Below, piece after piece: positions 3,948 through 28,710 of a DNA stretch of 64,000 nt. A program made the translations under genes and the position numbers. The stretch comes from Phototrophicus methaneseepsis (GTDB taxonomy: Bacteria; Chloroflexota; Anaerolineae; Aggregatilineales; Phototrophicaceae). The notes beneath the pieces were generated by a model, which saw only the letters and a list, made by a program, of their open reading frames with translations, searched no databases and was not told the origin of the DNA. Positions within the stretch are counted from its first letter, which is position 1; every line of letters starts with the position of its first letter. Location: assembly GCF_015500095.1 (NCBI RefSeq), contig NZ_CP062983.1, positions 1,612,001 to 1,676,000 of the forward strand, in the 5' to 3' direction.

Positions 3948-6197
3948 ATGACGACGACATGGAAAGAACGATTATTGGAGCAGATGCCGCCGGATCTGGC
4001 CCGCGAGATTGACGTCTTCGAGGGGCAGATGGAGCTGCGCAAGCAGGGCAGCCTGGACGAGCGCGTCTTTGCAGAATCGCGCTTGCGCCGCGGTGTCTAT
4101 GGGCAGCGTTACGACAATGGCAAGCGCCATGATGGCATTGAAACGCGCGAACTTGAATTTCCGTCGGCTGATCTGGTCAAGGGGCCGGATACGCGATGGG
4201 ATGCGCCGGGTATGATGCGCGTTAAGCTGCCCTTTGGTGGCCTGACGGTGGATCAGCTTAATTTGCTGGCGGATGTGGCAGAAGAATACTCCGATGGTAT
4301 CCTGCACATTACCACCCGCCAGGATATTCAACTGCACTATATCCATATTGATGACACGCCGGACCTGATGCGCCGCCTAGCATCCGTCGATGTAACCACG
4401 CGCGAAGCCTGCGGTAACTCTATCCGCAACGTCACCGCCTGCCAGATTTCCGGCGTTTGCCATGATGAAGCCTTCGATGTGACGCCGTATTCCCAGGCGA
4501 TGGCGCGCTTCTTGCTCGGCCATGATGATGTGCAGGACTTTGGCCGCAAGGTGAAAATCGCCTTCTCTGGCTGCGAACAGCATGCCTGTGGCCTCGTGAA
4601 GATGCACGATGTGGGCTTCCTGGCACGCACCGTTGAAAAAGACGGCCAGTTGGTGAAGGGCTTTATGGTCTTCGTCGGTGGCGGCCTGGGTACGGTGCCG
4701 CATCAGGCCAAGGTCCTTGCAGATTTCGTCGCTGAAGACAAAATTCTGCCCCTGACGCAAGCTATCTCACGCGTGTTTGCCCGCCTTGGCGAAAAGCAGA
4801 ACCGCAACCGCGCCCGCCTCAAGTTCTTAGTCGCCAAGCTCGGCATTGAAGAATTCCGCCGCCTGGTGCAGGAAGAACTCGAAACACTGCCCGCTGATGA
4901 GCGCCACACGGCTTACATCGATGAGCTGGATAGCTACCGCGAAGAACCGGCCCGCCAGGGGATGATCCTCAATGGCGAACCTGTGCCTGAAGCTTTCTAT
5001 GATTGGTATCGCACCAACGTCTATAAGCAGCGCCAGCCCGGTTACAGCGTCGTGACGGTCAAGCTGCCGCTGGGCGACCTGACGAGCTGGCAGACGCGCC
5101 AATTGGCCGATATTGCGGCGGAATACGTGGGCGATAATATCCGTACCACTGTTGAGCAGAATATTGTGCTGCGTTGGGCCCCGGATAAGGATTTGCCACA
5201 GATCTACCAGCGACTGGCTGAGATTGGTCTGGCGGATGCGGGCGCTAATACCATCGTGGATATTACATCCTGCCCTGGTACGGATACCTGTAAGCTGGGT
5301 ATCGCCTCCTCGCGCGGCCTGACGGCTGAACTCAGCCGCCGTCTCGTCGCCAAGCGTGCGGAACTGCCGCCTGCGATTGAGGACCTCAAGATCAAGGTCA
5401 GCGGGTGTTTTAACTCCTGCGGCCAGCACCACATTGCGGATATTGGCTTCTTCGGCAACAGTCGACGCAGTGGTAACCATAAGGTGCCGCACTTCCAGGT
5501 CGTGCTGGGTGGTGAATGGGAGAATAACGCCGGGAGCTTCGGCCTGGCAATGGGTGCTGTCCCCGCCAAGCTGGTGCCGGATGTGTTAGAGACGATCACT
5601 AATGCTTATGTATCTGAGCGTGGCGCAGATGAGTTATTCCAATCCTGGGTAGAGCGCAAAGGCCGCCGCGAGATGAAAGCCTTGCTAGAGCCTTATATGG
5701 GCCTGCCCACCATTGATGAACAGCCGCAGATGTTCACGGACTGGGGCGACAGCCGTATCTATAGCATTGCCGACATCGGCGTTGGCGAATGTGCTGGCGA
5801 AGTCGTTTCGCTCTTCTCGATGGAAATTGCCCGTGCGGAATCGGTTCATTTTGATGCGCTGATCGCATTGGATGAAGGCCAGTACGAAGTGGCTGAGCAA
5901 AAAGCTTATCGGGCCATGTTGCTGGCGGCCCGCGCCCTGGTACGTACTCGCTTCCTGGATGTTGGTGACGACCCGGATAATATCGTTAGTGAGTTCAAAG
6001 CGCGCTTCTACGATACCGAACTCTTCTTTGATCCCTTTGCGAAGGGTAAATTCGGGCGTTATTTGCTTGAACGCCATGACGAGCCGCCGACAGTCGTCGA
6101 CAAAGACCGCGCTCATCAGACCGTTGAAGAAGCGCAGCTCTTTATCGAGGCTACCCACGCCGCAGAAGCACGCATCAATGGCGTGATTACCAGCTAA
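3948..6197 (+). CDS. Ferredoxin-type nitrite/sulfite reductase (siroheme, 4Fe-4S) with C-terminal extension
   Basis: This 749-aa enzyme reduces sulfite to sulfide or nitrite to ammonia with six electrons, using siroheme bridged to a 4Fe-4S cluster. It has the duplicated ferredoxin-like and catalytic halves of the NirA/CysI family. The C-terminal half has the cluster ligands C442-x5-C448 and C487-x3-C491; the last Cys normally bridges to siroheme. The N-terminal half has a similar set (C165-x5-C171, C209-x4-C214). About 150 residues after 595 form a helical, HEPN-like extension not needed in minimal enzymes. ATG 3948 follows GAGGGGA. The upstream siroheme genes support the assignment; sequence alone does not separate sulfite from nitrite as substrate. 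Confidence 0.9.
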   Translation: MTTTWKERLLEQMPPDLAREIDVFEGQMELRKQGSLDERVFAESRLRRGVYGQRYDNGKRHDGIETRELEFPSADLVKGPDTRWDAPGMMRVKLPFGGLTVDQLNLLADVAEEYSDGILHITTRQDIQLHYIHIDDTPDLMRRLASVDVTTREACGNSIRNVTACQISGVCHDEAFDVTPYSQAMARFLLGHDDVQDFGRKVKIAFSGCEQHACGLVKMHDVGFLARTVEKDGQLVKGFMVFVGGGLGTVPHQAKVLADFVAEDKILPLTQAISRVFARLGEKQNRNRARLKFLVAKLGIEEFRRLVQEELETLPADERHTAYIDELDSYREEPARQGMILNGEPVPEAFYDWYRTNVYKQRQPGYSVVTVKLPLGDLTSWQTRQLADIAAEYVGDNIRTTVEQNIVLRWAPDKDLPQIYQRLAEIGLADAGANTIVDITSCPGTDTCKLGIASSRGLTAELSRRLVAKRAELPPAIEDLKIKVSGCFNSCGQHHIADIGFFGNSRRSGNHKVPHFQVVLGGEWENNAGSFGLAMGAVPAKLVPDVLETITNAYVSERGADELFQSWVERKGRREMKALLEPYMGLPTIDEQPQMFTDWGDSRIYSIADIGVGECAGEVVSLFSMEIARAESVHFDALIALDEGQYEVAEQKAYRAMLLAARALVRTRFLDVGDDPDNIVSEFKARFYDTELFFDPFAKGKFGRYLLERHDEPPTVVDKDRAHQTVEEAQLFIEATHAAEARINGVITS

Positions 6198-14235: not shown

Positions 14236-15579
14236 ATGAGCGAAAAGAAGCGTTATGCACTGGTGGGGACGGGTTCCCGGGCCAGCATGTTTATTGACGC
14301 CATCACACTGACCTACACCGATGTGGCCGAGCTGGTTGCTTTTAGCGACCTCAGCCAGACGCGCATGGATTGGTACAATGAGAATGTCATGGTCAAGCGC
14401 GGCTTTGCCCCGCTGCCGACGTATCCTTCGGCTGATTTTGATCGCATGATCGAAGAGACCAAGCCCGATGTCGTCATTGTGACGACCATGGATGCGACCC
14501 ATCACATCTATATCACCCGTGCAATGGAATTGGGCTGTGATGTCATCACGGAAAAGCCCATGACGACCGATATTGATAAGCTGCATGCCATCTACGATAC
14601 CATCGAGCGCACAGGCCGTTCTCTGCGTGTGACGTTTAATTATCGCTATGCGCCGGCTTATACGCGCTATCGTGAACTCATCATGCAGGGCGTGATTGGC
14701 AAGCCGCTTGCAGTCGATTTCTCCTGGATTTTGGATACCAGCCACGGCGCGGATTACTTCCGTCGTTGGCACCGCGAAAAGCAGAACAGCGGCGGTTTGC
14801 TGGTACACAAAGCCACTCATCACTTCGATCTGGTCAACTGGTGGATTGATTCTTACCCGGTACAGGTTTTTGCTATGGGCGGCCTGCAATTCTATGGGCA
14901 GGAAAATGCCGAGGAGCGCGGCGAGCATTATAGCTATAAACGCTATACGGGCGAGCCGGAAGCGAAAGACGATCCTTTTGCGCTCTTCCTGGATGAAAAA
15001 GAAGTCTTCCGCGGCCTGTATATGAATGCGGAAAAAGAAACCGGGTATCTGCGTGATCGTAATGTATTTGGTGAGCCGATCACAGCAGAGGACACGATGA
15101 ACGTCACGGTACGCTATCAAAATGGTGTGCTCATGTCCTATTGCCTGATCGCTTATGCGCCCTGGGAAGGCCTCAAAATTGCGATTACGGGCACCAAGGG
15201 CCGCATTGAGATGGAAATTGTCGAGAATATCAATCATCTCAACGGCGATGGCGCTGCTAAGGCCAGCAAAGGTGCCTTTAAGACAGCGACAATCCGCGTT
15301 TACCCCATGTTCGGCGAGAGCTACGAAGTCGATGTGCCGATGGGTGACGGCGGCCATGGTGGGGCGGACCCCATCATGCTGGAACAAATCTTCTCGCCCA
15401 ATCCGCCGGATGATCCCTTCACACGGGCTGCAACGCATATTGATGGCGCTGCGTCCATCTTAGTTGGCATCTCTGGCAATATCGCCATGCAGACCGGGCA
15501 ACTCGTCAATATCCCAGACCTGTTCGAACTGCCCCAGCGCCAAGCAAGCTCAACCTCAGCGACACCGCAGGGAAAATAA
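14236..15579 (+). CDS. Gfo/Idh/MocA family oxidoreductase, first gene of hexuronate operon
   Basis: This 447-aa protein begins [19 protein letters not shown] with a Rossmann GTGSRA motif, followed by [14 protein letters not shown] and the family motif [28 protein letters not shown] holds the Lys/His/Asp residues of the second domain. A longer frame starts at TTG 14209, but GAAGGA seven bases before ATG 14236 decides for the shorter start. It ends one base before uxaC. It is longer than typical members (about 350 aa) because of insertions after residue 210. Its place with UxaC/UxaB/UxaA suggests a uronate-linked dehydrogenase, which is inferred. Confidence 0.85.
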
Positions 15580-15580
15580 A

Positions 15581-16981
15581 ATGATGGAAGATCGTTATTT
15601 TTCACCGGACCCGGCTCAACGCCAGGTAGCGCGTACATTGTATGAGACGGTTCAGTCACTGCCGCTGATTTGCCCGCATGGTCATGTGGAACCGCGTCTA
15701 TTGGCAGACCCGAATTATCAGTTTGGCTCGCCTGTCGATCTACTCATCATCCCGGATCACTACATCTTCCGCATGTTGTACTCGCAGGGCATCTCTCTGG
15801 AAGCGTTAGGCATTCCTCGCCAGGATGGAGCCGCTGTTGAAAGCGATCACCGTGCGATCTGGCAGAGCGTCTGTGACCATTGGTACCTGTTCCGTGCCAC
15901 GCCGACGGGTATCTGGGTGCGTGATGAATTGAGCGATGTCTTCGGCATTGACCTGAAGATGAACACGGCCAATGCGCAGGCGATTTATGATGCCATTGAA
16001 GAAAAACTGGCACAGCCGGAATTCCGCCCGCGTGCGATGTTCGAACGCTTCAATATTGAGGTGCTGGCAACAACGGATGCTGCGACAGATACATTGCAAT
16101 ATCATCAAGTCATCAAGGAATCTGGCTGGGGCGGGCGTGTGGTGCCGACCTTCCGCCCGGACGCTGTCGTGAACATAGATACGCTGAACTGGGGCAATCA
16201 TATCGAAAAGCTGAGCACTGTCTCCGGCATTGATGTGACTGACTATGCCAGCTACATCCAGGCGTTGGAACAGCGCCGCGCTTTCTTCAAGACGATGGGA
16301 GCGACGGCGACGGACCATGCCGCGACGTCAGCTTATACGGCTGTGCTGACCGATGTCGAAGCCGAAACGATCTTCCAGCGGGCACTGGCTGGCAAAGCCA
16401 CTGCGGAAGATGCGAAGCGCTTTACAGGCCATATGCTGATTGAAATGGCGCGCATGAGCAGCGAGGACGGCCTCGTTATGCAATTGCACGTCGGTGCTTA
16501 TCGTGATCATAATCAGCGTATTATGGATGGCTTCGGCCAGAATATGGGCGCAGACATCCCCATGACGGCGGAATTCACGCGCAGCTTGAAGCCGCTGCTG
16601 GACCGTTACGGCAATCATCCTGATATGACGGTAGTCCTGTTTAACTTAGATGAGACCAATTACAGCCGCGAACTGGCCCCGCTTGCGGGTCACTATCCGA
16701 TCCTTAAATTAGGGCCGCCCTGGTGGTTCTTCGACAGCTTGTTGGGGATGCACCGCTACTTCGATGGCGTCATCGAGACAGCAGGACTGTATAACACAGC
16801 AGGCTTCAATGATGATACGCGTGCCTATCCTTCCATCCCGGCACGGCATGACGTCTGGCGGCGTGCCAGTGCCGATTGGCTGGCGGATAAGGTGGTGCGG
16901 CAGATCATTGATGAAGAGGACGCGGCAGCGATGATCGCGGCGATGGCTTATAAACTGGCGAAGTCAACCTATAAGTTATAA
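15581..16981 (+). CDS. uxaC: Uronate isomerase (glucuronate/galacturonate isomerase)
   Basis: This 466-aa enzyme of the amidohydrolase superfamily converts D-glucuronate to fructuronate and D-galacturonate to tagaturonate. The metal-binding motif ICPHGHVEP near residue 29, the QLHVGAYRDHNQ segment near 305, and LGPPWWFFDSLLGM near 380 are UxaC hallmarks. A longer in-frame ORF reaches upstream into the previous gene, but ATG 15581 is the sensible start, preceded by CAGGGAAAA. The next two genes encode the following pathway steps, which strongly supports the assignment. Confidence 0.95.
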   Translation: MMEDRYFSPDPAQRQVARTLYETVQSLPLICPHGHVEPRLLADPNYQFGSPVDLLIIPDHYIFRMLYSQGISLEALGIPRQDGAAVESDHRAIWQSVCDHWYLFRATPTGIWVRDELSDVFGIDLKMNTANAQAIYDAIEEKLAQPEFRPRAMFERFNIEVLATTDAATDTLQYHQVIKESGWGGRVVPTFRPDAVVNIDTLNWGNHIEKLSTVSGIDVTDYASYIQALEQRRAFFKTMGATATDHAATSAYTAVLTDVEAETIFQRALAGKATAEDAKRFTGHMLIEMARMSSEDGLVMQLHVGAYRDHNQRIMDGFGQNMGADIPMTAEFTRSLKPLLDRYGNHPDMTVVLFNLDETNYSRELAPLAGHYPILKLGPPWWFFDSLLGMHRYFDGVIETAGLYNTAGFNDDTRAYPSIPARHDVWRRASADWLADKVVRQIIDEEDAAAMIAAMAYKLAKSTYKL

Positions 16982-16991
16982 CGTACAAGTT

Positions 16992-18446
16992 GTGAAGACA
17001 AGCATGCTAAAAAAACTGAATCGAAGCAACATAGAGAGCGTCCCTGCCTACCCGGAGCGGATTGTGCAGTTTGGCGCGGGTAATTTTTTGCGCGCCTTTG
17101 CTGATTGGGCGATACAAGAACTCAATGAACAGACCGATTTCGATAGTAGCGTCGTCGTCGTCAAAGTGACGCCGGGCACCTATACAGAACTTGACGAGCA
17201 GGACGGCCTTTATCACGTTTATTTGCAGGGCATCCAGGATGGGCAGGAAGTCACCAGGACACAGCTCATCACCTGCATCAGCCGGACTGTTTACCCTTAT
17301 GATGATTGGGCCGCTTATTTAGACCTGGCGGCCCAGCCTGAAATCCGCTTTTTGATCTCTAACACCACAGAAGCAGGCATCAGCTATGACGAGAGCGACC
17401 GCGCCGATGCGACGCCACCGTCGTCTTTCCCGGCGAAGCTGGCCCTATTTTTGTGCCATCGCTACCAGCGTTTTAACGGTGGTGCGGATAAAGGCTGCAT
17501 CATCATCCCGACAGAGCTTGTCGAAGATAATGGGACACAATTGCAGACGATGATCTTGCGCTATGCTGAGCAATGGGGCCTTGAAGCTGGCTTTATGGAA
17601 TGGGTCCAGACGGCCAATATATTCTGTAATACCCTGGTCGACCGTATTGTGCCCGGTTACCCCAAAGCCCAGAGTGAAGCTATCCTGGCAGAGGCAGGCT
17701 ATGAAGATGACCTGCTTGTCATGGGCGAGCTTTATCATAGCTGGATCATCGAAGCGCCCGACCAGATCAAACAAGAATTCCCTGTCGATCAGACCGATCT
17801 CAACATCAAGGTTGTGGCGGATGCCGCCCCTTACCGCGAGACGAAAGTACGCATCCTCAATGGGGCGCATAGCTCCATGGTGCCGATTGGTTACCTGCTC
17901 GGCCTGGAAAGCGTGCGCGAAAGTATGGAGCATCCGGTATTGGGGCCATTTTTGCAGGCCCTCATCCGGCAAGAAGTCATCCCGTCTATGGATTTACCTG
18001 CCGATGAACTGGAACCCTTCGCGGCGGATGTCTTCGACCGATTCCGCAATCCTGGCATTCATCATCGTCTGCTGAGCATTGCCGTGAATTCCAGCGCCAA
18101 AGTGAAGACGCGCCTCGTGCCTTCGATCAAAGCCTATGCCAGTAAATACGGTGAAGTACCGCCGCGTCTCGTCATAGCGATGGCGGCTTTCATCCGCATG
18201 TACAAAGGCCAATGGCAGGGCGAAACAGTCCCGCTCAATGATGACCCGGCAGTGATTGATTGGTTCCGGCAGCAATGGCAAACTCAACCATCGATGCCAG
18301 ACTTAGCGCGTGCCGTGCTACAATATAAGCCGCTCTGGGATGAAGATTTATCACAAATCCCTGGCTTACAGGACCAGCTCAGCACCTATTTACAACAAAT
18401 TGATGAGGTGGGCTTGCTGCCACTCCTTGAAAAACTGAAAAATTAA
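16992..18446 (+). CDS. uxaB: Tagaturonate reductase-like, mannitol dehydrogenase family
   Basis: This 484-aa NAD-dependent polyol dehydrogenase has an N-terminal Rossmann domain (IVQFGAGNFLRAFADW near residue 24) and the mannitol dehydrogenase C-terminal domain. KVRILNGAHSSMVPIGYLLG near residue 285 contains the catalytic Lys and the N-x2-H motif. Length and the IIIPTELVEDNG segment favour UxaB (tagaturonate to altronate) over UxuB. The start is GTG 16992, although ATG 17004 is possible. It lies 10 bases after uxaC and 23 before the UxaA-like gene. Confidence 0.9.
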   Translation: MKTSMLKKLNRSNIESVPAYPERIVQFGAGNFLRAFADWAIQELNEQTDFDSSVVVVKVTPGTYTELDEQDGLYHVYLQGIQDGQEVTRTQLITCISRTVYPYDDWAAYLDLAAQPEIRFLISNTTEAGISYDESDRADATPPSSFPAKLALFLCHRYQRFNGGADKGCIIIPTELVEDNGTQLQTMILRYAEQWGLEAGFMEWVQTANIFCNTLVDRIVPGYPKAQSEAILAEAGYEDDLLVMGELYHSWIIEAPDQIKQEFPVDQTDLNIKVVADAAPYRETKVRILNGAHSSMVPIGYLLGLESVRESMEHPVLGPFLQALIRQEVIPSMDLPADELEPFAADVFDRFRNPGIHHRLLSIAVNSSAKVKTRLVPSIKAYASKYGEVPPRLVIAMAAFIRMYKGQWQGETVPLNDDPAVIDWFRQQWQTQPSMPDLARAVLQYKPLWDEDLSQIPGLQDQLSTYLQQIDEVGLLPLLEKLKN

Positions 18447-18469: not shown

Positions 18470-21148
18470 ATGACTGTGCCTTTAACAATCCCTTTTGATG
18501 ATGTGGGACGCTTGCCCGCCCCGGATGATAATGTCGCCATTGCCACGCGCCGCCTGGAGGCGGGGACCCATATCACGCACAATGGCGATCAGGTGACGCT
18601 GTCGCATACCGTGCTGGTCGGCCATCGCTTTGCGGTTAAGCCCATTGATGTGGGGCAATCGCTGCTCTCCTGGGGGCAGACCTTCGGCATTGCGATCCGC
18701 CCTATTGCCCCTGGGGATTATGTTTGTAACGATGTGGTGCTGACGGAACTGCACCGTCGAGAGTTGGATTTCGAGCTGCCTGCTCAGCCCAACTTCCAAA
18801 ACGAACTGGAGCCATATACTTTCAATGAGGCTTCTTTCCAGCCAGCTCAGCAGCTGCCGCGCTATACGGATGTGAAGACCTTTATGGGCTATCAGCGTGC
18901 GGGTGGGCGTGGCGTTGGCACGCGCAATATGATCGTCCTGCTTGGTACAACCTCGCTCGTTTCCGGCTTCGTCAATGCGCTGGAGCAGCAGCTTCGTCCT
19001 CTGCTGGCGGATTATCCGAACATTGACCAGATCGTTGCTGTCGCTCATACGGAAGGCGGGCACGGCGCAGCCAATAACCGTGACTTGCTGCTGCGCACGC
19101 TCTCCGGCTTTATGGTGCATCCCAACGTTGGGGCGGTGCTGGCCGTCGATTACGGTCATGAAGTCATCAATAACGCCGCCCTGCAAGGCTATATTCAAGC
19201 CAATGGCTATGCATTGGATGCGGTGCCACATCACTTTATGAGTTTGAGCGCCGCCTTTGAAGAGGACCTGAATACGGCGGAACAGGTCGTGCTCCGCTGG
19301 ATGCCCCAGGTGAATGCGGCTGAACGTACGCCCCAGCCGCTGAGTGAGCTTAAAATCGCGCTGCAATGTGGTGGCTCCGATGCTTTCTCCGGTGTGAGTG
19401 GTAACCCACTGGCGGCATGGGTCGCCAAAGAGGTGATTCAATATGGTGGCGCGGCCAACCTGGCGGAGACGGATGAACTCATCGGCGCGGAAACATACGT
19501 GCTCGATAAGGTCCGCGACAGCGCGACAGTGCGCAAGTTCCTATCATTCATCGCGCGCTTTAAGGAGCGCGTCGCGTGGCATGGCCACTCAGCCGATGGC
19601 AACCCCTCTGGGGGTAACAAATATCGCGGCCTCTATAACATCTACCTCAAGTCGCTGGGGGCCGCGACCAAACGGCACCCAGATGTGCCGCTTGATGCGG
19701 TCATCGACTATGGCGAGCCTATGCGCGAAGGTGGTTTCTACTTCATGGATAGCCCCGGTAACGACCTGGAAAGCATCGCCGGGCAGGTGGCATCTGGCTG
19801 CAATATGATCTTTTTCGTGACGGGCAACGGCTCAATCACGAATTTCCCCTTCGTCCCCACCATCAAGATCATCACGACAACTGAGCGTTATCACTTGCTG
19901 CCTAATGAGATGGACGTCAATGCCGGGGCTTACCTCGATGGCACACCGCTAGATGAATTAGGCGCACAGACCTTGCAGCTCACGATGGATGTGGCGTCGG
20001 GCCAGCTTTCAGTTGGCGAAGCCGCAGGTCATGCCCAGGTGCAGATCTGGCGCGATTGGCAGCAAACACACGCCATTGACCTGCATCCGATCAAGGCGCG
20101 TCACTTCGATGGCACGCCGCTGCCTGTATCCGTTGATGTGCCTGTGCCAGATGCCCGTATTCCCGTATTCCTCAATCAACAGGGGGAGATGACCACGGAC
20201 CAGGTCGGGCTTGTCCTGCCAACGAGCCTGTGTTCCGGGCAGATTGCGCGTATGTGCGTGGACCAGCTCAATAAGCATGAGCTAGGCCGTGAGGAGGGAC
20301 TGTCGCAGTTCGTCACGCTGGTGCATACGGAAGGCTGCGGCGGCTCGGTCAACCTGGAATTCCGCGATACACTGCTGGGTTATCTGGCGCATCCATTTGT
20401 GAAGCATGCGCTGCTGCTGGAACACGGCTGTGAATCGACACATAATGCTTTCTTCCGGCAGGCGATGCAGGACCGAGGTTATCACCCTGATGATTACGGT
20501 TGGGCCAGCATCCAGCTTGATGGGGGCATCCAGAATGTGCTGCACAAAATCGCGGGATACTTTCAAACGAAGCTGGAAAATGACGGGCCTGTTCAGCGCG
20601 CATTCGCTGGCCTGGAAGCAGTACGACTGGCTTTGCTCACACAGGGTGAAGTCTCGCCGGAAACGGCTCGTGCGATGGCTTACCTCAGCCAGATGATTGT
20701 GGCTGGTGGCGGCACGGTCTTGCTCCATGAGCAAGATAGCTTGCTGCACAGCGCGTTTATGGAGGTGTTTGGCCTTGCTGAAGTGCAGCCCACGCTGGAT
20801 TATGGTCAGGTCATTGAACAGGCCGGGTTGCATATCATGGCGATGCCCACCCGTGATTGGGGCGAAATCCTCACCGGGATGGGCGCGGCAGGCGTGGAAA
20901 TTATGCTGGCGCATGTCGGTGCGCAGCCCATGCCCGGTCATCCCATGATCCCAATGCTGCAGGTAGCCGCTGCAAATAGCCAGAATCCCTCTGTAGATAT
21001 GTCGCTCGACGGTGACAGCAAAGGGGATGCTCAGCGGATGCTTGATGACATCGTGCGCACGCTCTCCCATGAGTACACGCCTTCTGTGGTGCGTTCCGGC
21101 AATGTCTACTTCCAGATTACGCGCGGCCTACTGGGTGTATCGCTATAA
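18470..21148 (+). CDS. uxaA: UxaA-like altronate dehydratase with a second, degenerate UxaA-like copy fused at the C-terminus
   Basis: The 892-aa protein is nearly twice the usual UxaA length (about 495 aa). Residues 10-95 form the SAF domain, and 130-530 a UxaA catalytic region. This first copy keeps QCGGSD (299-304), SPGND (428-432), SGCN (C444) and FVPTIKI (461-467), but the cysteines expected after HT-x-G and in GCE are gone: it reads HTEGGHG (193-199) and DYGHE (227-231). Residues about 577-892 are a second copy with HTEGCG (C623) and HGCE (C654), but it lacks CGGSD and SPGND, and has GVEIML where the first has GCNMIF. The expected reaction is altronate to 2-keto-3-deoxygluconate. The complementary losses suggest a split active site in a fused dimer. 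Confidence 0.85.
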   Translation: MTVPLTIPFDDVGRLPAPDDNVAIATRRLEAGTHITHNGDQVTLSHTVLVGHRFAVKPIDVGQSLLSWGQTFGIAIRPIAPGDYVCNDVVLTELHRRELDFELPAQPNFQNELEPYTFNEASFQPAQQLPRYTDVKTFMGYQRAGGRGVGTRNMIVLLGTTSLVSGFVNALEQQLRPLLADYPNIDQIVAVAHTEGGHGAANNRDLLLRTLSGFMVHPNVGAVLAVDYGHEVINNAALQGYIQANGYALDAVPHHFMSLSAAFEEDLNTAEQVVLRWMPQVNAAERTPQPLSELKIALQCGGSDAFSGVSGNPLAAWVAKEVIQYGGAANLAETDELIGAETYVLDKVRDSATVRKFLSFIARFKERVAWHGHSADGNPSGGNKYRGLYNIYLKSLGAATKRHPDVPLDAVIDYGEPMREGGFYFMDSPGNDLESIAGQVASGCNMIFFVTGNGSITNFPFVPTIKIITTTERYHLLPNEMDVNAGAYLDGTPLDELGAQTLQLTMDVASGQLSVGEAAGHAQVQIWRDWQQTHAIDLHPIKARHFDGTPLPVSVDVPVPDARIPVFLNQQGEMTTDQVGLVLPTSLCSGQIARMCVDQLNKHELGREEGLSQFVTLVHTEGCGGSVNLEFRDTLLGYLAHPFVKHALLLEHGCESTHNAFFRQAMQDRGYHPDDYGWASIQLDGGIQNVLHKIAGYFQTKLENDGPVQRAFAGLEAVRLALLTQGEVSPETARAMAYLSQMIVAGGGTVLLHEQDSLLHSAFMEVFGLAEVQPTLDYGQVIEQAGLHIMAMPTRDWGEILTGMGAAGVEIMLAHVGAQPMPGHPMIPMLQVAAANSQNPSVDMSLDGDSKGDAQRMLDDIVRTLSHEYTPSVVRSGNVYFQITRGLLGVSL

Positions 21149-22349: not shown

Positions 22350-23429
22350 TTATTCCATACTTTCCAGATAAGGCCAGCCGTCTTCATCCCAGGAGAGCGG
22401 ATTAATTCGTAGGGTCGGCACGCCCTGATTTTCCGCATCATAGGAGTGGTAGACCATGTAATACACATCATCTTCGATGTAGATGCCATTATGCCCTGGC
22501 CCAACCCATCGCTCAGTTGGGAAAGTGACCTGCGTGCCGCCATCGTCCATCATATCGACACCTTCTTTATCGACATATGGCCCTGTGACGCTCTCGGAGC
22601 GGCCTACCATGACGCGATAGGTGCTGTCGACACCGCTGCAGCACTGGTCCCAGGAGACGAACAGGTAGTAATAACCATCGCGGTAGACGATGAAGGGGGC
22701 TTCTATAGCGCGTGGGTGAATGGCTCTTTGGGCGATTTCATAGACTGTGTCGTCTTCCGCCGAAGGCAAGCCTGTTTCATAATCCAACCGGACCATTTTT
22801 ATACCGGACCAATGGCTGCCGAAGGATAACCACGGCACGCCATCCTCATCAAGGACGAGGTTGGGGTCAATACAATTGTAATTCTGTGTCCCTGTTGATT
22901 CCACAACCAGCCCTTCATCGACCCATTCGTAATCGTCTGATGTGTGGTCCAGGGTGGCGTTGGTGAGCAGGCCGATCACAGAGGTATCGCTGCCAAAGGT
23001 GGAGACGGAATAATACAGATGAAATTTGTCGTTGTAGTAAGAAATATCCGGCGCCCAGACGTCATTCTGGTTCGGGATTTTCTCCTGTACCCAATCTGGC
23101 AAATTACCGAAGATGCGCACAGGGAAGGATTGCGTCCAATGCAGCATATCGTCAGATTTGCGCAGGGACATACCCGGGCCGGTGCAGAATAGATAGTATT
23201 TGTCGTTCTCTTTAATCATCACCGGGTCGTGCACGGGCCGGATGTTGCCTGTGAGTGGCAGCGGCCCCGTCATTTCAGCCATCGTATCTTCCTCCTGCGC
23301 CTGTGTCGTGTGCGCCAAGCGGGATGCCCCCAGCCCCAGGCCAGCGCCTAAGATCATGCTCGTTTTCAAAAAATGCCGTCGTGTGATGGGCTTGATTGTG
23401 TGCTTCTTCATCAAATGTCGCTTCGTCAT
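22350..23429 (-). CDS. GH43 arabinanase-like glycoside hydrolase with Tat signal
   Basis: This 359-aa protein starts with a twin-arginine signal ([21 protein letters not shown]), so it is exported folded. The five-bladed GH43 propeller has the three catalytic acids: Asp68 in VHDPVM, Asp188 in CIDPNL and Glu243 in IEAPF. The family context (endo-1,5-alpha-L-arabinanase group) fits [17 protein letters not shown] and [13 protein letters not shown] 23429 follows AAAGG by eight bases; a TTG three bases earlier is less likely. It is the last gene of the arabinan operon and should cut arabinan outside the cell. Confidence 0.88.
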
Positions 23430-23459
23430 CAAGAATACCTTTTCGCTAAATAGAATCGT

Positions 23460-25349
23460 CTAAGTGCTTGTTGTTCGTGTGCGCTTGTACCAGACGGCCA
23501 TAGTCGTATTGCCGCGGTGCCCCCAGGCATAGTAGGGAATGGCCGTGATGCCCTCGCCAGTAATCATGGTGATGCCGCCCAGGAAGACCGGATGATGCTC
23601 TGCTGAAAGATGTGTGCTGTCATCTAAGAAGATGCTGAGCGCATTGCCACCGTTATCAATGCCTTCCGCTGCATAGACCAGCGGCCCACGTTCTAGGGCG
23701 ACTTTACCGCGTGTATCCGCGATGTTGGCATGTGCGACAACACGCCTGATCGGCATCGGCAGCACCAATTCCACCACATCGCCCGCTTGCCATGTGCGCT
23801 CCAGGTGAATATAGCCCCCTTCCTGGTGTACAGGCTGCGACACGCTGTTGACTGTTAGCGCAATCCTACCCGGTTGGTCGTTTACATAACGATACAGATC
23901 ACTCGTTGGCACAGGCTGGCCGTTGACCCAACCGGGTACCCGCAGCGAGAGTGTGAAGTGGGCCGGCTCTGATGAATCAATCGCAAGCTGGATTGTGCCA
24001 TCCCATGGGTAAGTTGTCGTCTGTATCAGCCGGACATCCTGGTTGGCGATGCTGACAACCATGCTGCTGCCTGTATACAGGTTGACATAGAGATGATCGT
24101 CACGCGTGGCATAGATATAACCGGGCAAGGAAGGCAGAAGGCGCACCACATTGGTGGGGCAGCAGGAGCAGTTAAACCAGGCCTGCCGCGTGAGTGTGTG
24201 CTCTGCGTTGAAGGCGTATTCATTATCGGATTCCAGCGGGTTGACGTAGAAAAACTCATTGCCGCTCAGCGATATGCCCGACAGGAAACCATTGTAAAGC
24301 GTGCGCTCCAGCAGGTCGTAATATTTGGGGTCGCCATCCAGCAGGAACATGCGGTGGCTCCAGTAGATGCTGCCGATAGCGGCGCAGGTTTCGTTATAGG
24401 CGGCCTGATTTGGCAGATCATACGCTTCTGAGAAGGTCTCGCCTGTATGCCGCGCACCGATACCGCCCGTCAGGGAGAGTTTTTTCTGTACGACGTTATC
24501 CCACAGCGCACGTACGGCTGTTTTGTAGGCTTCATCATCTTTGAGGGCGGCCACATCGACCATGGCGGCGTACATATAGGTCGCACGTACAGCGTGGCCC
24601 ACAGCTTCGCGTTGTTCTGTGACGGGGAGATGATCCTGCATATAGCCAGGGTTATCGAATGCGGATTGCAGGCTGTGACCTGCTGCATTGCCGCGCTCAT
24701 CCAGGAAGAACTTCGCTAGATTGAGATATTTTTCATCGCCTGTTGCGCGGTACAGTTTGACGAGTCCCAGTTCAATTTCTTGATGGCCGGGGACGTCTCG
24801 CAGGCCATCAGGGCGGAATACATCATTGATCAGGTTTGCGCTCTTCAGGGCGACATCCAGGAAGGCCCGCTTCCCCGTCGCCTGGTAGTATGCGACGGCG
24901 GCCTCATACATATGGCCGAGATTATAGAGCTCGTGGCTCGTCTTCAACTGGGACCAGCGCTCTGTGCCGCTCATCTCGTGGGGATGGGCCGGGTCAATTG
25001 TCCGGGCTGTATAGAGGTAGCCATCTGGCTCCTGCGCGGCGGCAATTTTATCAATGACATCATCAATATAAAGTTCAAGCTCCGGGTTTGGGTGCCGCTG
25101 GAGGTCATAAGCGGCCCCTTCGATAACTTTAAAGACGTCACTGTCATTGAATTGAATACCGATATGTGGGCCATCCATCAGGCGTGCCGCTTTGACGAAG
25201 TTATCAATGCGGCCTGTTTCTTCGCATTTCCTGAAGTCATAGGGGATGGTGATATCGTGGTTTGTCTTGAGGCGAGGCTGCCAGAAGCTGTCTTGGATGG
25301 TGACGTTTGTAAAAGGAATCGGTTGAAAAGGATAATCTTTGCTAACCAT
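23460..25349 (-). CDS. GH127 beta-L-arabinofuranosidase
   Basis: This 629-aa enzyme belongs to the HypBA1 group, whose nucleophile is a cysteine next to a zinc site. The signature CSCCPTN is present at 394-400, giving nucleophile Cys396 and zinc ligand Cys397, with further ligands Glu320 and Cys322 in NETC and the acid/base Glu304 in HTGET. No signal peptide is seen, so it acts on imported oligosaccharides. ATG 25349 is preferred over ATG 25364 because GGAG lies nine bases before it. It follows the GH43-AbfB gene. Together with GH51 it would handle both alpha and beta arabinofuranosides. Confidence 0.92.
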   Translation of the reverse strand: MVSKDYPFQPIPFTNVTIQDSFWQPRLKTNHDITIPYDFRKCEETGRIDNFVKAARLMDGPHIGIQFNDSDVFKVIEGAAYDLQRHPNPELELYIDDVIDKIAAAQEPDGYLYTARTIDPAHPHEMSGTERWSQLKTSHELYNLGHMYEAAVAYYQATGKRAFLDVALKSANLINDVFRPDGLRDVPGHQEIELGLVKLYRATGDEKYLNLAKFFLDERGNAAGHSLQSAFDNPGYMQDHLPVTEQREAVGHAVRATYMYAAMVDVAALKDDEAYKTAVRALWDNVVQKKLSLTGGIGARHTGETFSEAYDLPNQAAYNETCAAIGSIYWSHRMFLLDGDPKYYDLLERTLYNGFLSGISLSGNEFFYVNPLESDNEYAFNAEHTLTRQAWFNCSCCPTNVVRLLPSLPGYIYATRDDHLYVNLYTGSSMVVSIANQDVRLIQTTTYPWDGTIQLAIDSSEPAHFTLSLRVPGWVNGQPVPTSDLYRYVNDQPGRIALTVNSVSQPVHQEGGYIHLERTWQAGDVVELVLPMPIRRVVAHANIADTRGKVALERGPLVYAAEGIDNGGNALSIFLDDSTHLSAEHHPVFLGGITMITGEGITAIPYYAWGHRGNTTMAVWYKRTRTTST

Positions 25350-25455
25350 CAACAAAAACTCCATAACTATTTTATGAGGATTAAGTTTTTTGTTACTTTA
25401 TTCTAGCCGCTTTAGGATCTGATTTCGCTTGATTTCGAGATTTCCTCGTGGACTC

Positions 25456-27015
25456 TTAATCCTCTGCTGTGCTCTCTGTTGCATGGTTGATGGGCTCAAT
25501 GTAAAAAGTCGCGTCTTCGCGCTCGGTTTCGCTGGCTTCATCCGTGAGGGGCGTCAAGGCGATCAACCCCATGCGCCTGCCAATGAATAAGCCAGGCTGG
25601 CTGTAAGACTCAAACGAGATGCCGCTGTCGTCGGCGAGGCCTGGTTGCAGCCACCATGTAGAATCTGCCTCGTAGGTATCCGAGCCGTCATAAGCGCTGA
25701 GGACGACGGCGTTATTTTGCTGATGCAAATAGAAGCCGGGGAAGTTCACAGATTCAATAGAAACGGCCTCTTCGTCTGCCAGCCCTGGCACTATCCTGAA
25801 CTCGGAATCTGGCGAGTTCGCCCCACTAAAGCCCACTTCAATATAGAAGTTGCTGTGGCTCAGGTAAGCGCCCTCCATGGCTGCTGCGGCAAAGCGCACG
25901 CTTGGGACTGTAGTTGGCATGGGGTCAATGCCCATATCACCTGCTGGTGCCGCAATGGCCTCTGCTGTGCTGACAGGCACGCCAAAGTTCGGGGTGCCAT
26001 CTTCGTTCCAGGTAAAAGGCTGAGCGCGGGTGCTGCGTCGGCCATCACATCCATAGCTGGTTGCGTCGTTCGCATGATAGACAAGCCAGTATTCGCTGCC
26101 ATCTGGCGACATGAAGAACCCATTATGCCCTGGCCCATACACGCCATTTGCCTCAGACTGCTGGAAGACAGGCTCAGGGTGCTTTTCCCAGGCTGCGGCA
26201 TCCAATGGGTCATCCCCTGACAATTCTAACAGGCCCAGTTTGTAATCGGGCGTGCCGCAAAAACTGGCTGAATAGACGATGAAGGTATCATCGTCATGCT
26301 GTAGGGCGACGGGCGCTTCGTTGACGCGTAAGCCCCTTGTCTCCCAATCGTACTCTGGCTGAGAGATGATGGTGCCCGGCCCGGATAGCGTCCAGGGATT
26401 GCTCATCGGGGCGATGGCGATGCTCTGGTCTGGGCCATCCCAGATCGAATACAGGAAGTACAGCGCATCGTCGTATTGCAGGACGCTGCCATCAATAGCC
26501 CAGACGTCATGGCTCGCATCATAGAGGCGGCCCTTATAGGTATAAGGCCCCAACGGGTCTGTGCCTTCGCTTTCCAGCACATGCGTATGCTGGCTGTCCT
26601 GGTTCGCTGCGACGCCTGCTGTGTAATAGAAATACCAGCGCGGCCCATCCGGACCATCAAGCAGGTAGAACTCCGGTGCCCAGAAGTTGCAGCAGCGCGA
26701 AGGGTCTGTTTCATGATAAATAATGATGGGTTCCGCTGTTTTGAGGCCAGCTAACGTCGGGGATTTGCGCATGGCCCAATAGGAGGCCCATGTCGTTGTT
26801 GCCAGGTAGTAGTTGCCATCATAATAAGTGAGCCAGGGGTCCGCACCCCCATAGTCATTGAGCGGGTTACGGAACGTGCCTGCTTCCAGGTCGGTTTGGC
26901 CCGTTTCAGGGGGTGTATCCTGCGCTTGTATGGCTATGCCAATCAGCAGCGCAACGAGCGTCCATAGGGTCATCATGGCTTTGGGAAGATGCCTGATTGT
27001 TCTGCACGGTATCAT
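25456..27015 (-). CDS. Secreted GH43 arabinofuranosidase with C-terminal AbfB (CBM42-like) domain
   Basis: This 519-aa protein has a Sec signal peptide (hydrophobic stretch about 14-30, cleavage near IQAQD). The GH43 propeller carries Asp59 in GGADPW, Asp175 in WAIDGS and Glu233 in NEAPV as the catalytic acids. From about 371 to 515 there is an arabinose-binding AbfB beta-trefoil with the repeated pattern YLSHSNF, FYLHQQNN and LFIGRRM. It is preceded by a GAGGGGA ribosome-binding site and comes 114 bases after GH51, separated by a hairpin. It probably removes arabinose side chains outside the cell. Confidence 0.88.
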   Translation of the reverse strand: MIPCRTIRHLPKAMMTLWTLVALLIGIAIQAQDTPPETGQTDLEAGTFRNPLNDYGGADPWLTYYDGNYYLATTTWASYWAMRKSPTLAGLKTAEPIIIYHETDPSRCCNFWAPEFYLLDGPDGPRWYFYYTAGVAANQDSQHTHVLESEGTDPLGPYTYKGRLYDASHDVWAIDGSVLQYDDALYFLYSIWDGPDQSIAIAPMSNPWTLSGPGTIISQPEYDWETRGLRVNEAPVALQHDDDTFIVYSASFCGTPDYKLGLLELSGDDPLDAAAWEKHPEPVFQQSEANGVYGPGHNGFFMSPDGSEYWLVYHANDATSYGCDGRRSTRAQPFTWNEDGTPNFGVPVSTAEAIAAPAGDMGIDPMPTTVPSVRFAAAAMEGAYLSHSNFYIEVGFSGANSPDSEFRIVPGLADEEAVSIESVNFPGFYLHQQNNAVVLSAYDGSDTYEADSTWWLQPGLADDSGISFESYSQPGLFIGRRMGLIALTPLTDEASETEREDATFYIEPINHATESTAED

Positions 27016-27082
27016 GTGCGTTCCCCTCTATTTACTTGTTTGCTGGCTGGTCAACCGCTGTTGGTGATGGTGGCTGCTGATG

Positions 27083-27117
27083 GAAAGAGAAGCCCCTTTA
27101 ATAGGGGCCTCTCTTTC
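27083..27117 (-). terminator. Hairpin between GH51 and GH43-AbfB genes
   Basis: GAAAGAGAAGCCCCT pairs with AGGGGCCTCTCTTTC with one mismatch over a five-base loop. No T tract follows on the minus strand, so it may attenuate or stabilise the GH51 message rather than fully terminate. Confidence 0.6.
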
Positions 27118-27128
27118 AGGTCACGTGC

Positions 27129-28637
27129 TTAAAGCTGCACGTCAATGGCTGTGAAGGAGAGCGGCGGCAGGACCAGGGTGGTGCTGCTTTCGTCGAAGCT
27201 CGGTGCATCGACTTTCTTGGCGACGACCTGGTCCGGATTGTCGAAGCTGTTTGCAGCTTTGGGGTCCGTCCCAGCAACCTGATAGATGCTGTTGATGCTC
27301 TTCGGCGCGCGGTCTTGCCAGTGAATTTCAACGGGCAGGCTGTCTGTCTGGCTGCGATTGACGATGAAGATGGCGTTGCTGTCGGTTTCTTCGTTGTAGG
27401 AGCTAGAAACATCCAGCAGCGGCATATCGCCAAACTCAGATGTGTTATAGAGCGGTGAACGTGTCGTCACATCCAGCGATTTACCGCTTGCCAATTGGCT
27501 GAACAGCATGAACGGATAGTAGATGCTCTGCTTGAGCATGCTATCGCGAGTCGTCAGGATCGGAGCAATGACATTGACGATCTGTGCAAGGCAGGCGACT
27601 TTGATGACGTCGGCTTTACGCAGGAAGACGTTCATCCATTGGGCGACGACGAGCGCGTCTTCCAGGTTATAAACTTCTTCGATCAGGTGCGGGGCTTCTT
27701 CCCAATTACCCTGTGTATGCTCTGAGCCATGCGCCTTGTACCAGACGTTCCACTCGTCCCATTGCAGGTAAACGTCTTTCTTGGAGCGGTTCTTGGCCTT
27801 CACATAACGCAGCACGCCAGAGAGCGTATCGACAAAGTACTCAAATTCAGCGCTCTTTGCTAGGTAGCTGGCGGTGTCGTTGGCGTGATTATTGGCATAA
27901 TGATGCATCGAATGGTAATCCACATAGTCATAGCAGATTTCCAGCGCGACGCGGTCCCATTCCGGGAAGGTGGGCATGCTGGAATTGGAAGAACCACATA
28001 GCACAAGTTTGATGTCGTTGTCGTGCCAGCGCATCATCTTGGCGGCTTCACGGGCTTTTTTACCGTAATCTTCCGCTTCCAGGTGGCCGATCTGCCACGG
28101 GCCATCCATCTCATTGCCAATGCACCAATGCTTGACGTTATAGGGTGCTTCGTGGCCGTTTTCCGCGCGCATATTGGCGTACTTTGTGCCGACGGGACCG
28201 TTGCAGTATTCCACGAGGTTCGCTGCATCCTGGATGCTGCCCGTCCCCATGTTGACGGCCATCATCGGATCAGTGCCGATTTCCTGGCAAAAATGCATGA
28301 ACTCATCGGTGCCGAACTGGTTGGTCTCAATAGACTGCCATGCGAGGTCGCGGCGGGTGGGGCGCTGGTCTTTGGGGCCAATGCCATCTTCCCAACGATA
28401 ACCACTCAGGAAGTTGCCGCCAGGATAGCGCATCGACCGGAAATTGAGTTCGCGCAGGGCAGCAAGTACGTCTTTACGCAGACCATTCTCATCTGCATGG
28501 GGGGAAGCCGGGTCGTAAATGCCTTCGTAGATCGCGCGACCCATATGCTCTGCAAACCCACTAAAGAGCAGCGGCGAAATATCGCTGACCGCTCGTTGGG
28601 TATCGATGTAAAGCTTCGCTTTAGGTGAATCGGTCAT
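27129..28637 (-). CDS. GH51 alpha-L-arabinofuranosidase
   Basis: This 502-aa intracellular enzyme releases arabinose from arabino-oligosaccharides with retention. The acid/base is Glu176 in CIGNEMDGPW and the nucleophile Glu295 in QWDEWNVWY; MRYPGGNFLSGYRWEDGIGP is the conserved N-terminal segment. There is no signal peptide. A TTG 18 bases upstream extends the frame but lies within the GAAGGAA ribosome-binding site, so ATG 28637 is the start. It is downstream of the sugar ABC permeases, with a perfect palindrome at 28711-28726 in its leader. Confidence 0.95.
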   Translation of the reverse strand: MTDSPKAKLYIDTQRAVSDISPLLFSGFAEHMGRAIYEGIYDPASPHADENGLRKDVLAALRELNFRSMRYPGGNFLSGYRWEDGIGPKDQRPTRRDLAWQSIETNQFGTDEFMHFCQEIGTDPMMAVNMGTGSIQDAANLVEYCNGPVGTKYANMRAENGHEAPYNVKHWCIGNEMDGPWQIGHLEAEDYGKKAREAAKMMRWHDNDIKLVLCGSSNSSMPTFPEWDRVALEICYDYVDYHSMHHYANNHANDTASYLAKSAEFEYFVDTLSGVLRYVKAKNRSKKDVYLQWDEWNVWYKAHGSEHTQGNWEEAPHLIEEVYNLEDALVVAQWMNVFLRKADVIKVACLAQIVNVIAPILTTRDSMLKQSIYYPFMLFSQLASGKSLDVTTRSPLYNTSEFGDMPLLDVSSSYNEETDSNAIFIVNRSQTDSLPVEIHWQDRAPKSINSIYQVAGTDPKAANSFDNPDQVVAKKVDAPSFDESSTTLVLPPLSFTAIDVQL

Positions 28638-28710
28638 GATGTGTATTTCCTTCAAAGTTGATTAAATTTACCACTATAGCGGGCCAAAATTGAACAACAT
28701 AAAACCTACT

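Follow-up and report, generated by a model that had tools for sequence, protein, structure and literature searches.

A fused two-copy protein of the UxaA/GarD superfamily with the conserved motifs divided between its copies: a probable one-chain pseudo-dimer with a single composite site

When examining a 64,000-nucleotide stretch of the genome of Phototrophicus methaneseepsis (contig NZ_CP062983.1, positions 1,612,001 to 1,676,000; hereinafter, the window), we observed that the gene at 18470-21148 on the + strand encodes a protein consisting of two tandem copies of a UxaA/GarD-type unit, with complementary losses of the most conserved motifs. Three of the four cysteines that are conserved in the superfamily are found in the second copy and the fourth one in the first copy. 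This split is invariant among the aligned homologs, the losses always co-occur, the gene belongs to an operon with genes for uronate isomerase and tagaturonate reductase, and the protein is the sole UxaA relative found in the genome. The protein probably is an altronate-type sugar-acid dehydratase that functions as a pseudo-dimer within a single chain and has one composite site, in which the residues retained by the second copy would bind iron and the motifs retained by the first copy would handle the substrate.

The gene is an intact open reading frame (ORF) of 892 codons, with the ATG at 18470 and the stop codon ending at 21148; all features of the protein given below are, accordingly, on the + strand. 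In the copy 1 part of the 892-amino-acid (aa) product, Pfam search detected, all above the gathering scores, SAF (residues 20-85; 18527..18724; PF08666, 28.6 bits with a cut-off of 21), GD_AH_second (residues 140-282) and GD_AH_C (residues 291-530), that is, the three domains in the order that characterizes the UxaA/GarD superfamily (COG2721). Comparison with VIA-align also identified the SAF region, with residues 10-113 matching 3k3s_A (Z 13.3). Domain 2 of copy 1 (GD_AH_second, delineated here as residues 134-284; 18869..19321) contains a GY-R-G-RN motif and none of the three domain 2 cysteines, and domain 3 (GD_AH_C, residues 286-531; 19325..20062) retains the CGGSD, NPSGGN and SPGND motifs. 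When residues 577-892 were searched with Pfam, both domains were detected again, GD_AH_second at 43.9 bits (cut-off 27.3) and GD_AH_C, in part, at 28.0 bits (cut-off 26.8), and an hhalign comparison aligned copy 2 with copy 1 throughout domains 2 and 3 (E 7.8e-16), which bears out the original prediction, derived from the DNA letters, that two tandem UxaA-like copies are present. Domain 2 of copy 2 (approximately residues 561-705; 20150..20584), with a strand at 564-568 in the structural model, retains the three cysteines, E655 and Q682. Domain 3 of copy 2 (residues 706-892; 20585..21145) is degenerate: about 70 residues are deleted, as indicated by a gap in the hhalign alignment, and the NPSxGN segment is gone with them, as are the other catalytic motifs. 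The sequence PTRDW indeed occupies the place of SPGND in copy 2, as originally proposed, but GVEIML, which had been assigned to the place of CGGSD, matches the region of C444 instead, and the actual counterpart of CGGSD is LLTQGEV. With the GarD equivalog model TIGR03248, the 892-aa protein scores 203 bits, below the cut-off of 731; in two annotated database records, the fused family is named 'UxaA family hydrolase'.

In E. coli UxaA, the conserved cysteines are C132, C166, C199 and C264, and in GarD, C144, C179, C215 and C288; further cysteines in these two proteins are not conserved. In the fused protein, this set is divided three to one: C588 (in LPTSLC; 20231..20233), C623 (in HTEGC; 20336..20338) and C654 (in HGCE; 20429..20431), the equivalents of UxaA C132, C166 and C199, respectively, are located in domain 2 of copy 2, and C300 (in CGGSD; 19367..19369), the equivalent of C264, is located in domain 3 of copy 1. 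Neither copy contains all four cysteines in one unit of domain 2 and domain 3, and the set is complete across the two copies. The original prediction correctly included C623 and C654, missed C588, and also counted C444, which does not belong in the set and which we reject because it is conserved neither among the fused proteins (C, A and S in 68, 16 and 13 of the 97 sequences described below) nor among the single-copy enzymes with four cysteines (cysteine in merely 37 of 91).

To assess the constancy of the split, we used an alignment of 97 fused proteins from three phyla, of which 43 (P0001 and 42 loci, two of these, L029 and L037, stopping short of the C-terminus) were supplemented with 54 from further genomes; the latter were found with a model of copy 2, a route closed to proteins that lack this copy. 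Some genes are present twice in this set, which shrinks to 94 sequences at less than 98% identity, and two copy-2 matches at contig ends, G813 (a 449-aa frame starting at the contig end) and G750:C3 (a 243-aa frame), were left out. C300, C588, C623 and C654 are each present in all 97 sequences, and the same holds for the remaining residues of CGGSD and SPGND and for H619, E651, H652 and E655. Conversely, not one of the 97 sequences has a cysteine in copy 1 at 158-168, at 197 or at 230 (the latter two being the equivalents of C166 and C199); a cysteine a few residues away from 197 is found in eight sequences and from 230 in one, and five and one of these, respectively, were inspected and lie outside the motifs. 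None of the 97 aligned fused sequences has one complete copy. The pattern is also found in a Pantoea soli plasmid protein, which is 43% identical to the window protein; a Rubrobacter plasmid protein probably is the same as one of the loci (L202) and was counted once. Thus, as originally proposed, copy 1 lacks the first cysteine motifs and keeps CGGSD and SPGND, and one complete set is spread over the two copies; the losses occur together in all 97 aligned sequences and in the Pantoea protein. A sequencing artefact is rejected given 97 homologs with the same pattern. The most divergent of the 97 (L170, from genome G218), with 46% identity to the window protein, has the full pattern intact.

The division between the copies follows a boundary that is apparent also among the single-copy members of the superfamily. 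In a control set of 111 such proteins (the two E. coli proteins and 109 loci with open frames of 330-700 aa matching UxaA), all four cysteines are present in 91, and the CGGSD cysteine alone in 20; the latter cysteine is found in all 111, and no member of the set has only one or two of the three domain 2 cysteines, with the third position falling into an alignment gap in two of the 20. Judging by this all-or-none distribution, the three domain 2 cysteines make up one unit and the CGGSD cysteine makes up a second one, and it is exactly these two units that the fused proteins place on different copies.

Comparison by individual alignment columns extends the split beyond the cysteines. There are 64 columns that are conserved in at least 90% of the 91 four-cysteine enzymes, 16 of which map to domain 2 and 48 to domain 3, and we considered a column kept in a copy of the fused proteins at the same threshold. 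Among the domain 2 columns, two are kept in both copies, six in copy 1 only, six in copy 2 only and two in neither. Among the domain 3 columns, the respective numbers are 8, 27, 0 and 13, so that copy 1 retains 35 of the 48 and copy 2 retains 8. The six columns kept in copy 2 only, all in domain 2, correspond to UxaA C132, C166, G198, C199, E200 and Q225, and the equivalents of C132, C166, C199 and Q225 are present in 0% of the copy 1 sequences. The chance that all six copy-2-only columns fall within the 16 domain 2 columns is 1.1e-4 if the columns are taken as independent, which is not quite the case. Five of the six domain 2 columns kept in copy 1 only belong to the GY-R-G-RN motif at the start of the domain, which thus stays with domain 3.

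The best explanation of these sequence patterns appears to be a fused dimer with one composite site. Under this scenario, a gene of the UxaA/GarD type would have been duplicated in tandem, with the copies fused into a one-chain pseudo-dimer, after which complementary halves of the active site would have been lost from the two copies. Domain 2 of copy 2 would provide the iron-binding set, namely, C588, C623 and C654 together with E655 and Q682, and copy 1 would provide the substrate-binding and acid/base set, that is, the RN motif preceding domain 2 as well as domain 3, which carries C300-GGSD, NPSGGN and SPGND. One working site would then be formed by domain 2 of copy 2 and domain 3 of copy 1, and the opposite pair, domain 2 of copy 1 with domain 3 of copy 2, would be dead and retained as a scaffold. 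The reaction most likely to be catalyzed in this operon would be the conversion of D-altronate to 2-keto-3-deoxygluconate (D-altronate dehydratase, EC 4.2.1.7). An AlphaFold model of the full chain has a mean predicted local distance difference test score (pLDDT) of 84.2 and a predicted template modeling score (pTM) of 0.85, with loops of pLDDT below 50, close to the motifs, at 196-198, 370-389, 622-627 and 655-658. Because residues 6-534 of this model match the GarD chain 6u7l_C in VIA-align (441 residues, root-mean-square deviation 2.8, Z 43), copy 1 is predicted to have the GarD-like three-domain arrangement. Matches ranked lower than GarD and the SAF fragments, with Z below 9, were taken as common alpha/beta folds only.

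Phylogenetic trees were constructed with FastTree from 20 of the 97 fused proteins, hand-picked for spread, and 40 of the 111 single-copy proteins, with less than 60% mutual identity. The two copies are sister clades in the tree of domain 2 (support 0.954) and in the tree of both domains (0.967), and for this reason the trees favor a tandem duplication of a four-cysteine gene as the origin of the fused form. In the tree of domain 3, copy 2 is distant from all other sequences and copy 1 joins UxaA/GarD-type proteins with four cysteines (0.901), with the cysteine-poor L086 being the nearest single sequence by distance. Descent of copy 1 from the cysteine-poor branch was considered and rejected given that no such grouping appears in the trees, a weak argument with five cysteine-poor proteins that themselves do not form a clade. 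Altogether, the fused dimer of the original prediction is supported by the homology of the copies, by two of the three trees and by the similarity of residues 6-534 to GarD in the model, and is not supported by the domain 3 tree.

Several observations, beginning with this failure of the copies to come out as sisters in the domain 3 tree, weigh against a composite site within one chain. When residues 286-706, which comprise the two proposed partners, domain 3 of copy 1 and domain 2 of copy 2, but not domain 2 of copy 1, were folded alone, the pTM was 0.57, compared to 0.85 for the full chain, and the mean pLDDT was 71.9, which lends no support to packing of the partners by themselves. Covariation between domain 2 of copy 2 and domain 3 of copy 1 was at 0-0.68x expectation, and that between domains 2 and 3 of copy 1 was at 1.2-3.1x expectation, contrary to what a composite site predicts, but both figures come from a method that failed its own control and are therefore not used for or against the proposal: among the top 300 pairs from the 94 non-redundant fused sequences, short separations accounted for 1.7% and 1.0% compared to the expected 1.4%, so there was no enrichment and no contact signal. 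Moreover, the equivalents of G198 and E200 are still present in 87% and 75% of the copy 1 sequences, respectively. Finally, 15 of the 64 conserved columns, including R416, D284 and G421 of UxaA, are kept in neither copy, and therefore the remaining site would be modified and its specificity possibly changed. The last observation could also be construed to mean that the protein has decayed or catalyzes a different, iron-free reaction, with the conserved cysteines being structural; we consider this highly improbable given the constancy of the pattern across the 97 sequences and the adjacency of the uxaC and uxaB genes to what is the sole UxaA relative found in the genome. Somewhat less improbable, but still improbable, is that the composite site forms between two chains, such that copy 2 of one chain contributes domain 2 and copy 1 of the other contributes domain 3. 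Such an arrangement would explain the split equally well, and the 286-706 fragment folded without confident packing within the chain; however, the full-length single chain is predicted to be a single ordered unit, with the pTM given above, and the fusion would seem to be of little benefit if the partner were on another chain.

The most serious alternative, which we nevertheless regard as unlikely, is that copy 1 alone is a complete lyase without domain 2 cysteines, with copy 2 in a structural or regulatory role and retaining its own cysteine metal site. The 20 single-copy proteins that lack the three cysteines and yet possess domain 3 indicate that copy 1 might work alone; this cysteine-poor group, which, given a published statement on sulfolactate sulfo-lyase, is putatively SuyB-like, resembles copy 1 also in retaining the CGGSD cysteine and 35 of the 48 domain 3 columns, the same number as copy 1, and it includes the above-mentioned nearest sequence to copy 1 in the domain 3 tree. 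Sulfolactate sulfo-lyase is stated to lack the conserved cysteines (PMC6336799). By contrast, the SuyB-like proteins have no second copy, and copy 1 falls elsewhere in the trees: it joins the four-cysteine proteins in the domain 3 tree and copy 2 in the others, with the caveat of the few cysteine-poor proteins noted above. Furthermore, copy 2 is present in all 42 loci (two of them cut by contig ends), with its three cysteines and E655 invariant and Q682 fully retained, and a mere partner would hardly need these residues.

If the fused protein has a composite site, the ordinary homodimeric UxaA/GarD site would, by implication, be located where domain 2 of one subunit faces domain 3 of its partner. 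Had each ancestral subunit contained a site of its own, no working site would survive the split and there would be no explanation for the constancy of both halves, barring domain exchange or a copy 1 that works without the cysteines. In GarD, the second domain reportedly is the dimer interface, and a site across this interface would be allowed. A more general proposal, which we make tentatively and with distinctly less confidence than that on the composite site itself, is that the three domain 2 cysteines with the glutamate and the glutamine form a unit apart from the CGGSD cysteine, perhaps holding a three-cysteine [4Fe-4S] cluster as in aconitase rather than a rubredoxin-type iron, that all homodimeric UxaA/GarD sites lie across the subunit interface, and that the fused branch gave up one of the two sites. 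In a paper on D-arabinonate dehydratase and other UxaA/GarD enzymes, four conserved cysteines (134, 173, 208 and 276 in D-arabinonate dehydratase) are proposed as the iron ligands of the superfamily, and a rubredoxin-type iron on four cysteines is argued for, with a call for further analysis (PMC6336799). By their spacing, without alignment, these positions fit the conserved UxaA/GarD set. The all-or-none presence of the domain 2 cysteines next to a constant CGGSD cysteine argues, at the level of sequence, against a plain four-cysteine rubredoxin site. The electron paramagnetic resonance signals at g ~2 and g 4.41 described in the same paper might fit an oxidised three-cysteine iron-sulfur cluster; according to its authors, the g ~2 signal on reduction behaves unlike that of a [3Fe-4S] ferredoxin (PMC6336799). 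The iron site of the superfamily thus looks unsettled, and the fused proteins, which part three cysteines from the fourth one on homologous copies, would, if the proposal is correct, amount to a natural complementation experiment that exposes the design of the whole superfamily, and allow direct tests of both the iron site and its location within the dimer. Either copy by itself should not be assumed to be an active enzyme.

Among the characterized proteins, E. coli UxaA (D-altronate dehydratase, 495 aa) has the same order of SAF, domain 2 and domain 3, pairs with copy 1 in the CGGSD, NPSxGN and PGND motifs and with copy 2 in the VGC, HTxGC and GCE cysteines, and is encoded next to the uronate isomerase gene, as in the window; unlike the fused protein, it is a single copy with all four cysteines, with 33% identity over approximately residues 20-526. 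E. coli GarD (galactarate dehydratase, PDB 6U7L) is similar to copy 1 in fold and domain arrangement, but again has one copy, with all four cysteines in one chain. Heteromeric members of the superfamily are of another kind, with a split-off small SAF subunit. D-arabinonate dehydratase and the other enzymes of that report belong to the same superfamily, and no fused double copy is described in its available part (PMC6336799). A search of the literature by title, in which subscription journals were sparsely covered, yielded no description of a fused or duplicated UxaA or of a split site.

The fused gene is preceded by the genes for UxaC uronate isomerase (15578..16981, + strand; NF002794, 512 bits with a cut-off of 387; PF02614) and for a tagaturonate reductase of the UxaB type (16992..18446, + strand; NF002969, 633 bits with a cut-off of 359), in this order, both above the NCBIfam cut-offs, that is, by the two genes expected in the context of an altronate dehydratase gene. 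The fused gene and the next ORF, which encodes an alpha/beta hydrolase, share one base between the stop codon of the former and the start codon of the latter. When E. coli UxaA was used as the query against the 5.6 Mb genome, the 18470-21148 ORF was the only one matched, both listed matches being inside it. This context points to altronate, which is our best guess for the substrate of the window protein. Elsewhere, the context differs: matches to both uxaC and uxaB near the fused gene are found in only three of the 42 loci (L002, L004 and L005; several loci have little flanking sequence). Two actinobacterial loci (L036 and L027) contain an alpha-ketoglutaric-semialdehyde-dehydrogenase-like gene, with a score short of the equivalog cut-off, together with a gene that gives weak matches of the fumarylacetoacetate-hydrolase type, with L036 also encoding KduD (above the TIGR01832 cut-off). 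In Pantoea, the neighbors are a GntR regulator, a gene of the fumarylacetoacetate hydrolase family and a KDG permease, and in the remaining loci examined, the neighbors are mixed or have no family match. Given these varied contexts, some of them of other sugar acids, the substrates of the fused branch seem to include more than one sugar acid. Taken together, the observation at the core of the original prediction is confirmed and sharpened, and its interpretation is partly supported.

The nearest named relatives of the window protein come from Anaerolineaceae and other Chloroflexota assemblies (58-69% identity), and the fused form is present in 8 of 61 genomes related to that of the window, itself included. 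Strong matches to the copy 2 model were found in 4 of 400 genomes of the same phylum, in 39 of 104 genomes from the family to which L030 (Paenibacillus) belongs and in 20 of 296 from the phylum that includes L027 (a Rubrobacteraceae assembly), frequencies that are inexact in that the latter two samples include known carriers and 5-21 candidates were scored in each of the large genomes. Apart from the two contig-end cases, G813 and G750:C3, each strong match lies within an open frame of at least 865 aa, and none of the genome samples searched with this model yielded a stand-alone gene for a complete copy 2. Short pieces of copy 2 in small frames were detected in G553 (model positions 2-52) and G490 (model positions 287-319), and both these genomes also carry the whole gene. 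A family of fused proteins of about 900 aa is thereby marked out in at least four phyla.

Single-copy, SAF-containing proteins with all four cysteines, 37-39% identical to copy 1 and encoded in frames of 520-539 aa (L051-L058), come from the same bacterial family or order as the window and would make a good experimental control. Beside the uronate genes, the - strand of the window harbors a region of the arabinan/pectin sugar type (22350-28655), in which family searches identified GH43 (22350-23432), a GH127 beta-L-arabinofuranosidase (23460-25364) and a protein with an alpha-L-arabinofuranosidase C-terminal domain (27129-28655). Elsewhere in the window, the + strand gene at 3948-6197 encodes a 749-aa protein of the nitrite/sulfite reductase type, in which NIR_SIR and NIR_SIR_ferr were each matched twice, and adjoins ORFs at 105-2885 that, by eye, resemble precorrin/siroheme genes.

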